Part shown: positions 46,243 to 49,021 of the stretch, piece after piece
Layout of the letters: the number at the start of each line of letters is the position of its first letter
Numbering within the stretch: position 1 is the stretch's first letter
Notes under the pieces: model-generated
What the model saw: only the letters and a program-made list of their open reading frames with translations
Told to the model about the DNA's origin: nothing
The model's database searches: none
NCBI GenBank assembly: GCA_903906425.1
Contig: CAIVKH010000279.1
Coordinates: forward strand, 1 to 64,000
Source of the DNA: an uncultured bacterium
Lineage (GTDB): Bacteria; Verrucomicrobiota; Kiritimatiellia; CAIVKH01
Reading direction: 5' to 3'
DNA: 64,000 nucleotides
Program-made: the position numbers and the translations under genes

Positions 46243-46929
46243 TCAGCCCGTGACGGTCGCGGAGACGGTGTTGCTCCACTGGCCGACCATTTTGTCGTCT
46301 TTGAAATAAATCGCCTTGTATCTCCACACCACGGCCGTGCCGCGCGGGGGCAGCGGGTGCTTGTCGGCGTAGGTGGATCGCGTGCTCATGTCGATCAACA
46401 CGAAACTCCCGTCTCCATAGTCGGCCCAGATTTGCACGCCGGGCAGGCGGCCTTTTTTCCATTTGAGCAGGGGCTGCAGGCCGGGCGACGCGATGACTTC
46501 GATTTTCGGCTGGACGGCGGCGAGATCGAGGGGATGTTTTTTCGGCGCGATGAGGCCGAGGGCCGCGCCGATGTGCGAGGCATAGCCGGACGATACCTTG
46601 ACGCGTTGCGCGAGCTGACCGGCGCGTTTGAAGATGCCGGCGAGGGCCCCGGGCGGCGGAGGTTCGAGTTGAGGCGGCTGCGGGAAGTCGCCGAGCTTGC
46701 CGCCATCGCGCAGCGCGTCGCGCCGGGCGGTCAGCGCCTTGGTGTAGGTCTCGAATGCGGCGCGCGTGCGGCACAGATGGTCGAACACGGCCGCATCGGC
46801 GGCGAGCTGCTCGACGTCGCCGTCGCCCAAGTGCAGTTGCGGGGCGTATTGGGGCAGTTCCGCGGCGAAGTTCTTCAGCCAGACCGCGCGTTCAGGATCG
46901 TGGCGGGGGATGAACCGTACATCAGGCAT
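46243..46929 (-). CDS. Hypothetical protein with C-terminal fibronectin-III-like domain
   Basis: VWRYKAIYFKDDKMVGQWSNTVSATVTG ending. Confidence 0.75.
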   Translation of the reverse strand: MPDVRFIPRHDPERAVWLKNFAAELPQYAPQLHLGDGDVEQLAADAAVFDHLCRTRAAFETYTKALTARRDALRDGGKLGDFPQPPQLEPPPPGALAGIFKRAGQLAQRVKVSSGYASHIGAALGLIAPKKHPLDLAAVQPKIEVIASPGLQPLLKWKKGRLPGVQIWADYGDGSFVLIDMSTRSTYADKHPLPPRGTAVVWRYKAIYFKDDKMVGQWSNTVSATVTG

Positions 46930-46984
46930 GGGTTTTATTCCTTATATGACGTCGCCCGTTCGTCCGAAGGCGGCCCGCAGCGAT

Positions 46985-47320
46985 AAAATCGCGCGTCTGA
47001 ACGTAAAATTGGCATATTTGGGCCATTTCGTGCATTGTAGCTGCCCTTGAGCGGCGGTGCAACATGTAAATGCACCTGCACTGGAAGCCTCCGGAGCGTC
47101 TATGGATCATTTCACACTGGTGCAAAATAAGAATGCACCGTTGCTGAGCGATGCCATACCTGCCATAGGTCGTCCAGCGAAGGTGCTACATAAGAATGCA
47201 CCCTAGATACTGCATTCCGCAGCTGTACGGAAGCATTCATTCGCGGTGCAATTACAGATTGCACCCGCGTAGAGGCTATCCGCACAACGCTTGGAACGTC
47301 CATCCGCAGTCTTTTAAGGC
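46985..47320. repeat. Degenerate 21-bp-period array organised in 63-bp super-units; contains GGTGCA-N9-TGCACC inverted repeats at 47056, 47119, 47182, 47245
   Basis: Manual phasing; four inverted repeats at exact 63-bp steps. Confidence 0.9.
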
Positions 47321-47367
47321 GGCGGCGCGCGCCTCCGCCGTTCCGCGGCGGGCAGCCGGAATTCCGG

Positions 47368-47409
47368 GATGAGCCGCGACCTCTCCGCGATGAGCCGCGA
47401 CCATCGGAC
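47368..47409. repeat. Two adjacent 21-bp units GATGAGCCGCGACC(TCTCCGC/ATCGGAC)
   Basis: Direct read, 14/14 match of unit cores. Confidence 0.75.
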
Positions 47410-47471
47410 GTCGGGGTGGAATCATCCCGCGATGGGGCGCGGCGAGCCGCGCTTCTGCCGCGACCGGCCAG

Positions 47472-47583
47472 TTCCAATGATTGGAAACTCCGGCCGCCCA
47501 AACTTCCAATGATTGGAAAGATCATCGGCCGCCTACTTCCCATGATTGGAAAATGCGCCCGCGAAAGTTTCCAATGATTGGAA
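47472..47583. repeat. Palindrome quadruplet at 47472, 47504, 47537, 47569 (spacings 32, 33, 32)
   Basis: Three exact copies; the third is TTCCCATGATTGGAA. Confidence 0.96.
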
Positions 47584-47671
47584 GCTGCGATGCGGCGGCG
47601 GCGGGCGACGCGGGCGTGGGCGATGAAGTTCGTGCTTGCGCGGCGGGCGGCGCGGGGCGATTTTTGCGCGC

Positions 47672-49021
47672 ATGAAAATCAAGCCGTCAACCCGCCGCCA
47701 GTTCCTCGCTTCCACCGCCACCGCCGGATTCGCGTTTACGTTCCTGCCGCGCCACGTGCTCGGCGCGCCGGACCAGCCGGGGCCGTCGGAGAAACTTAAC
47801 ATCGCCGGCATCGGCATCGGCGGGCAGGGCGGCGGCGTGACGAAGGAGATCGCGGGTTTCCCGAACGCGAACATCGTGGCGCTTTGCGACGTGGACATGA
47901 AGTATGCGGCCAACACGATCAAGCAGTATCCCGGCCGGCCGCTCTACAAGGACTACCGGGTGATGCTCGAGAAGGAGAAGGGCATCGACGCGGTCATCAT
48001 CGGCACGCCCGATCACTGGCACGCGCCGATTTCGCTCGCGGCGATGAAGCTCGGCAAGCATGTGTATTGCGAGAAGCCGCTGACGCACACGATCGAGGAG
48101 GCGCGGCTCTGCGGCAAGGTGGCGGCGGAAATGAAGGTCGTCACGCAGATGGGCAACATGGGCCACGGCGGCGAGGGCATCCGGCTGACGAAGGAATGGA
48201 TTGATGCGGGCCTCATCGGCGCGGTGAAGGAAGCACACGTCTGGTCGGACCGGCCCGGACATTTCTGGGACACGCAGGGCAAGCGCGCGCCGACCGATAC
48301 GCCGCCGGTGCCCGACACGCTCGACTGGAACATGTGGCTCGGCGCCGCCGCGATGCGGCCCTACAACCCGGCGTATTGCCCGCGAAAGTGGCGCGGCTTT
48401 TTCGATTTCGGCTGCGGCGCGCTCGGCGACATGATGGTCCACAACGCCGATCCCGCGTGGTACGCGCTCGATCTCGGCGCGCCCGAGTCCGTCGAGGCGC
48501 AGACCGCTGAAACGAATCCCGACACGTTCCCGCTCTGGTGCATCGTCACGTGGAACTTCCCCGCGAAAGGTTCGCGCGGCCCGGTGAAACTCGTCTGGTA
48601 CGACGGCGGAAAACAGCCGCCGCTGCCGCCCGGCTCCGAGCCGGACCGCAAGCTTGAGGACAACGGAATTTATTTCGTCGGCGAAAAGGGCGTCATCATT
48701 TGCGGCGGCTGGTCCGGCGCGCCGCGGCTCGTTCCCGAAACCGCGATGAAAGATTTCAAGCCCGTGGCCAAGACCATCGAGCGCGGCATCGGCCACCGCA
48801 AGGAATGGGTCAACGCGTGTATCGCCGGAAAACCCGGGGACGCGAAGGCGGGCTTCTGGTATTCCGCGCCCTTCACCGAAGGACTGCTCATCGGCGTGCT
48901 GCCGATCCGCCTCGGAAAGAAAATCGAGTGGGACGCCGCGGCGATGAAGGCGAAGAACGCGCCGGAAGCCGACGCGCTCATTCGCAAAAAATATCGCGAG
49001 GGCTTCGGCCTGCCGGCCTGA
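47672..49021 (+). CDS. Gfo/Idh/MocA-family oxidoreductase with Tat signal
   Basis: TRRQFLASTATAG leader; IAGIGIGGQGGGVTKEIAG, CEKPLTHTIEEARL. Confidence 0.93.
   Translation: MKIKPSTRRQFLASTATAGFAFTFLPRHVLGAPDQPGPSEKLNIAGIGIGGQGGGVTKEIAGFPNANIVALCDVDMKYAANTIKQYPGRPLYKDYRVMLEKEKGIDAVIIGTPDHWHAPISLAAMKLGKHVYCEKPLTHTIEEARLCGKVAAEMKVVTQMGNMGHGGEGIRLTKEWIDAGLIGAVKEAHVWSDRPGHFWDTQGKRAPTDTPPVPDTLDWNMWLGAAAMRPYNPAYCPRKWRGFFDFGCGALGDMMVHNADPAWYALDLGAPESVEAQTAETNPDTFPLWCIVTWNFPAKGSRGPVKLVWYDGGKQPPLPPGSEPDRKLEDNGIYFVGEKGVIICGGWSGAPRLVPETAMKDFKPVAKTIERGIGHRKEWVNACIAGKPGDAKAGFWYSAPFTEGLLIGVLPIRLGKKIEWDAAAMKAKNAPEADALIRKKYREGFGLPA

Follow-up and report, generated by a model that had tools for sequence, protein, structure and literature searches.

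Iterons at plasmid replication origins are direct repeats of 17-22 bp located beside rep genes, and the ends of Tn7 carry 22-bp binding sites for TnsB. The arrays reported here resemble iterons in being direct repeats at two-turn steps near a gene, with the copies on one side of the helix, and the best lags found (21, 42, 63 and 22) are those of tandem repeats at about two turns. They differ in that the gene product consists of a helical part and a fibronectin type III (fn3) domain and is not Rep, a winged-helix initiator, and in that they are chromosomal and multi-copy, with a unit sequence that is free and replaced between paralogues. With the subterminal repeats of Tn7-type elements they share phased repeats of about 22 bp, located at one end of a unit that spreads, but no transposase was seen, the copies are far more numerous and the units are element-specific. 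Bacterial minisatellites (VNTRs) are likewise tandem, variable and homogenized before they decay; here, however, the step is fixed at 21 bp and the position before two gene families is strongly preferred across phyla. REP/BIME elements are short intergenic palindromes as well, whereas the arrays described here form no dispersed sequence family and differ in sequence at each locus. In TIGR-Tas, a repeat array adjoins a gene and the array content varies between loci (PMC12045711). The arrays in question share with TIGR-Tas and CRISPR a position beside a gene and a content that varies by locus, yet they show no division into spacer and repeat, as the whole 21-bp unit repeats in good arrays, and no Cas- or Tas-like protein was noticed and no RNA family found. 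Both identities were rejected: paralogous arrays contain no spacers, the 42-bp gaps in the array studied here fit degenerate units in register, and there was no Pfam match to the Nop-domain protein Tas for a product whose fold is helical plus fn3. Comparison of 68 neighbouring ORFs with Pfam brought up no Cas family in the 25 listed per side.

The array lies in the window, i.e. the whole 64-kb stretch of DNA that was analysed, and the locus comprises the following features:

46243..46929, minus strand: family-A gene, 228 aa, helical N-terminal part and C-terminal fibronectin type III domain
46930..47055, minus strand: leader of 126 bp between array and gene start
47056..47454, minus strand (taken from the neighbouring gene): array of 19 in-register 21-bp slots
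47056..47076, no strand: dyad unit 1, GGTGCAACATGTAAATGCACC
47119..47139, no strand: dyad unit 2, GGTGCAAAATAAGAATGCACC
47182..47202, no strand: dyad unit 3, GGTGCTACATAAGAATGCACC, with one arm mismatch
47245..47265, no strand: dyad unit 4, GGTGCAATTACAGATTGCACC, with 8-bp arms

The initial annotation had placed four dyads at 47056, 47119, 47182 and 47245 in exact 63-bp steps, with a mismatch in one copy and 8-bp arms in the last, upstream of the minus-strand gene 46243-46929. All of this was confirmed, the array lying 126 bp from the gene start. The pattern GGTGC-N11-GCACC matches four times in the 64-kb window, always at the dyads at 47056-47265, compared with 0.12 ± 0.33 matches in shuffled sequence. 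Over 46950-47450 the lag-63 score amounts to 29.2, while the maximum in 200 dinucleotide shuffles, taken as the best of all lags from 15 to 129, is 17.1. Autocorrelation of 47056-47455, for which the lack of a peak at 21 or 63 had been named as the adverse outcome, peaks at 63, followed by 126, 21 and 42. The steps are whole helical turns, as had been supposed (63 = 3 × 21, 21 bp being two turns), and the 42-bp gaps between the dyads do hold further 21-bp slots, the units of which are in register and very degenerate (mutual match 33-48%). The clearest lag-21 signal of the array (score 22.0, likewise above the shuffle maximum of 17.1) is found beyond the dyads at 47323-47402, and GATGAGCCGCGACC is repeated 21 bp apart near 47371, in the register of the dyads (47371 = 47056 + 15 × 21). 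The array therefore spans about 47056-47454, or 19 slots, with an outer limit at 47454 that is set by register and not sharply defined. A clear 3 × 21 higher-order repeat is confined to 47056-47265. Outside this part and 47323-47402 the array is strongly degenerate, and beyond the four dyads its periodicity is weak. Because the best lags elsewhere are 21, 42, 63 and 105, the 63-bp step represents a common higher-order repeat in its three-unit version; the window array is a decayed family copy, probably an old one, in which the dyad has been kept in every third unit only. It is among the weakest arrays and would not, taken alone, suffice to reveal the system.

A genome search gave one comparable dyad outside the window array, GGTGCAATCTGAGATTGCACC at C30:1591, which heads a clear 21-bp array of about 14 units before a paralogue of gene 46243-46929. 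Its likeness to the window dyads may be coincidental, as only one of about ten loci shares it. The window dyad motif is thus no operator dispersed over the genome. It is also very unlikely that we are dealing with a local set of operators for one regulator of the window gene: the nearly perfect dyads and their helical spacing ahead of a gene would fit, but paralogue arrays have other sequences and near-identical proteins have diverged arrays. The annotated multi-operator set of one sequence at one locus thus gave way to dozens of relatives with arrays, each of a different unit. Of the iteron-like character that had been suggested, the geometry stands; the gene encodes no Rep, belongs to no Pfam family and has no plasmid match.

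The 228-residue family-A protein is composed of a helical region (residues ~11-123) and an fn3 domain (~143-227). Its AlphaFold2 model (pLDDT 93.8) shows helices at 11-28, 36-75 and 99-111 followed by an eight-strand sandwich, which matches fibronectin III domains in Foldseek (E about 1e-4). No relative was found in Pfam, NCBIfam or PDB sequences. A plasmid iteron/Rep system was rejected on the basis of the helical-fn3 model, the lack of a Rep match in Pfam and NCBIfam, and a tblastn search of 72,556 plasmids that returned no match to this family or to the second family introduced below (family B). A phage origin was rejected too: the one phage match, which ran antisense to a gene for a tail fibre, was set aside, and the IMG/VR viral contigs yielded no relative. 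The sequence of the leader (46930-47055) is not conserved across family A, a 9-mer search allowing one mismatch gave no leader motif shared across family-A loci, and a consensus scan of 46900-47700 revealed no sigma-70-like promoter.

Gene 46243-46929 has nine further matches in its own genome, giving about ten relatives, and most of these paralogues are preceded by a 21- or 22-bp tandem array with a unit that is different at each locus, e.g., TGACGCGGACTCGTCA (L006), CTGTTGGAGCAACAG (L010, 22 bp) and GGGTGGCGACGTTCGCCACCC (L011). The exceptions are L008, with about three units only, and L009, which stops at a contig edge. When 85,488 species genomes were searched, at least 80 family-A loci were found via a conserved peptide; they are partly related to each other and form 42 clusters at 60% identity. 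They occur in Verrucomicrobia, in methanotrophic Gammaproteobacteria of the Methylococcales (Methylobacter, Crenothrix and relatives) and in Bacteroidetes (Flavobacterium restrictum, Hymenobacter), and the carrier genomes are mostly metagenome bins. At a score of at least 20, a threshold that we set ourselves, an array with a period of 21, 22 or a multiple is present within 900 bp upstream of 52 of the 61 family-A loci for which at least 500 bp of upstream DNA are available. By this count, 56 arrays with period 21n or 22n are found in 56.8 kb of upstream DNA, compared with three in the other 447 kb of these loci. The upstream 900 bp peak at lag 21 nearly throughout; the downstream side has no such peak. 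Scores at single loci reach 295, the shuffle maximum being 12.8. Among lags from 15 to 130 the best is 21 at 30 loci, 42 at 31, 63 at four and 105 at two, with a few cases of 22, 44, 88 and their neighbours. As dozens of relatives have arrays of different unit sequence, the conserved property is the 21-bp step and not GGTGCA. The pairing of a fixed-step array with a small gene is widespread in three bacterial phyla and apparently undescribed. We found no description of such arrays in the open-access literature, and the novelty rests on the lack of a match in the protein families, the RNA library and the open-access papers searched.

These comparisons show the window feature to be a decayed member of a recurrent array-plus-gene cassette. 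Such a cassette consists of a non-coding array of about 12 units spaced exactly 21 bp apart (22 in rare cases), a leader of ~40-400 bp and the helical-fn3 gene; some copies add a terminator or a second small ORF. A conserved ORF of this kind (~85 aa, MPFDPSLPQANTEIDAEQMRDQLNALND...) is situated 3' of the family-A gene in L131, L132 and L136, inside the cassette and ending at its right edge. Unit sequence varies by locus, even between paralogues with near-identical flanks and gene, while the step stays constant. In genome G248, three cassettes retain ~164 bp before the array (97-98% identical), the leader and the gene (84-89%), and yet the unit is GGCGTTGCCCTCCGTCAATCT in two of them and GGTCTTTCCAATTGGCAAGGG in the third, which match at 10 of 21 positions, i.e. 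at chance level. Two further pairs of paralogues, L123/L124 and L048/L069, the members of each coming from a single genome, have arrays that match at chance level as well. Flavobacterium restrictum harbours three copies at different sites that have leader, gene and terminator in common and show sharp edges, and their arrays have diverged. The proteins of pairs with diverged arrays are nearly identical (98%), and for L121/L126 of G248 the fn3 part is completely identical. With proteins this similar beside arrays so different, it is unlikely that the encoded protein recognizes its own array by sequence.

A second family, B, was reached through a 42-bp array in a sampled part of the window's own genome, which led to gene P0001 (L173:15857-16615, minus strand). 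The domain order is the same as in family A, helical and then fn3, and the model (pLDDT 83) agrees with this. Family B has no NCBIfam family, and in Pfam part of its members match only fn3 and, weakly, Pur_ac_phosph_N; the fn3 beta-sandwich is seen by Foldseek for family A and by Pfam fn3 for five of ten family-B members. Profiles of the two families resemble each other only weakly (hhalign E 0.0045, probability 8%), in a region that takes in fn3 and the end of the preceding helical part. P0001 has nine further matches in its own genome, and nine of the ten copies possess an upstream 21n/22n array scoring at least 20. Arrays also accompany the fn3 genes L192, L193, L201 and L202, for which gene starts were assigned provisionally; the long fn3 protein L191 has none upstream. 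Among family-B loci of other genomes, L204, L205, L206, L212, L216 and L223 exhibit clear arrays and L209, L217 and L221 weak lag-21 arrays, the upstream DNA of L211 is too short, and L207, L214 and L219 have no array; together with L114, these three are counted among remote family members without one. Carriers are rare. In 291 genomes of the phylum, family A is present in six, two of which have at least ten copies, and family B in five, with three genomes in common (P = 5e-5). The two families therefore occur in the same few genomes, and with the same array type.

An exclusive link between array and gene proved false, since orphan arrays stand in the window's own genome without a recognized family gene, at an estimated rate of about one per 85 kb, a background figure resting on 490 kb. 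Orphan 21-bp or 41-43-bp arrays are located at L170:405-626, L172:4970-5210, L172:15651-15765, L174:1781-1992, L144:18240-18471, L148:17778-18023, L151:125-431 and L159:5585-5903, and several orphan arrays of this genome apparently lie between gene ends. Directly before one 21-bp orphan array is the gene L172:3342-4739, the start of which may resemble ApeA-like HEPN defence proteins. The window itself contains a second degenerate 21-bp array at 336-576 (lag-21 score 40.8) with units of the GAAACCTCGCGAGGTTTCTTT type, some of them palindromic; no recognized fn3 gene is adjacent, and the next long plus-strand ORF covers 945-2531. Directly beyond the window array, at 47472-47583, four palindromes TTCCAATGATTGGAA, one of them mismatched, follow each other at about 32 bp. 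Clusters with lag 32 number 23 in ~490 kb of the same genome, and these palindromes are a separate dispersed family. L080 and L086 have 24-bp tandem arrays ~400 bp downstream of the gene besides their upstream 21-bp arrays.

The degeneracy of the arrays, the variability of the unit and the existence of orphans would suit ordinary minisatellites, that is, non-coding repeats born by slippage and devoid of function. We disfavour this explanation and consider it quite improbable: one-sided placement at two gene families in three phyla with a more than 100-fold enrichment is not expected of neutral repeats, nor is an exact 21-bp step kept through total turnover of the sequence.

A further explanation is that the array either arises from the spread of the cassette or assists in it, with the downstream gene as cargo. 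Each new copy might rebuild its array through amplification, templated or by slippage, in fixed 21-nt steps; alternatively, a mobilizing enzyme supplied in trans might use the array as its site, comparable to the subterminal repeats of some transposons. Several observations agree with this: occurrence is patchy and multi-copy (six of 291 genomes, at least ten copies in two), homology ends sharply at unrelated sites, arrays are replaced between conserved flanks, one array type is common to two co-occurring protein families, and orphan arrays exist. On the other hand, a Pfam comparison of the 68 neighbouring ORFs revealed, among the families listed, neither a transposase or reverse transcriptase nor any other partner gene common to the cassettes, no terminal inverted repeat or target duplication is apparent by eye at the edges of the G248 copies, and the array is found at the front of the gene only. 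We therefore rate this explanation as possible but doubtful. The genes neighbouring the cassettes are unrelated to one another. As a candidate cassette end, GGTGAAATCCGC was dismissed; it is present in G248 and L010, yet there is no pattern across loci.

Since 21 bp correspond to seven codons and one frame is open in some homogeneous arrays, coding for heptapeptide repeats was considered. This idea deserves hardly any credence and was ruled out by stops in many arrays, 22-bp steps and the lack of a synonymous excess (z 1.4); no reading frame is consistently open across arrays. Alternatively, the array could be transcribed as part of a 5' leader and act as RNA, either as a hairpin chain affecting translation or stability or as a phase-variation switch based on copy number. 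At some loci only 2-55 bp separate the array from the gene start, so that it may be part of the mRNA, C exceeds G on the sense strand in 27 of 37 clusters (p 0.002), and more than half of the arrays (38 of 71) fold better than column-permuted copies. Nevertheless, the fold advantage is the same for both strands (mean z -2.35 and -2.39), G-T and A-C mismatches at paired positions are nearly balanced (229 to 192), and homogeneous arrays such as L065, L126 and L035 have no fold advantage. The paired positions of the dyads do not covary (71 cells with both partners changed and complementary, compared with 83 ± 8 in shuffles), and an Rfam search of 14 loci returned only a tRNA and a tmRNA, with no covariance-model match for the arrays. 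An RNA hairpin chain was hence rejected, as palindromes and good folding go along with neither strand preference nor covariation, and a role of the array as RNA is improbable. Over all arrays, the consensus units exceed their shuffled counterparts in palindromic character (z 8.3), strongly so in about ten, while a palindrome is missing from many arrays and in particular from the most homogeneous ones. To judge from these patterns, symmetric DNA half-sites or units in mixed orientation would fit better than conserved RNA hairpins, and missing covariation is as expected for half-sites that are read independently.

The best reading is that the arrays are a helically phased cis element acting at the DNA level in mobile array-plus-gene cassettes. 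Beyond this we propose, tentatively and at somewhat less than even confidence, that the array is a phased DNA scaffold for a putative shared factor that would control the downstream gene. As 21 bp equal two turns of B-DNA, all copies of the unit would face the same side of the helix whatever their sequence, and for this reason selection would act on helical phase. A protein, or a curved-DNA structure, would probably assemble on this scaffold and control the promoter of the downstream gene. Given the many palindromic consensus units, the protein may often be a symmetric dimer; many arrays lack a palindrome, and a dimer site is therefore not general. Cassettes would spread to new chromosomal sites, where arrays would be renewed by tandem homogenization and then decay. 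It should be pointed out that an origin of the array as a by-product of cassette spreading would explain most of the facts equally well as the scaffold; regulation and spreading are compatible and not exclusive. Rather more speculatively, the cassettes could represent an undescribed class of mobile element, in which selection on the array concerns the step of two helical turns instead of the sequence, the unit is renewed as cassettes diverge, the array drives or addresses a helical-fn3 gene, and one trans-acting machinery is common to several gene families per carrier genome; we would sooner expect this generalization to fail than to hold.

An element that is fixed in period and free in sequence would be invisible to motif and homology searches, and caution is warranted in that 'operators' recognized at a single locus may be worn members of such arrays. 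Since its carriers include bacteria that are in culture and have names (Flavobacterium restrictum, Hymenobacter), the system is testable at the bench. The arrays link two unannotated gene families in three phyla and, if our reading is true, would point to a machinery that measures two helical turns.
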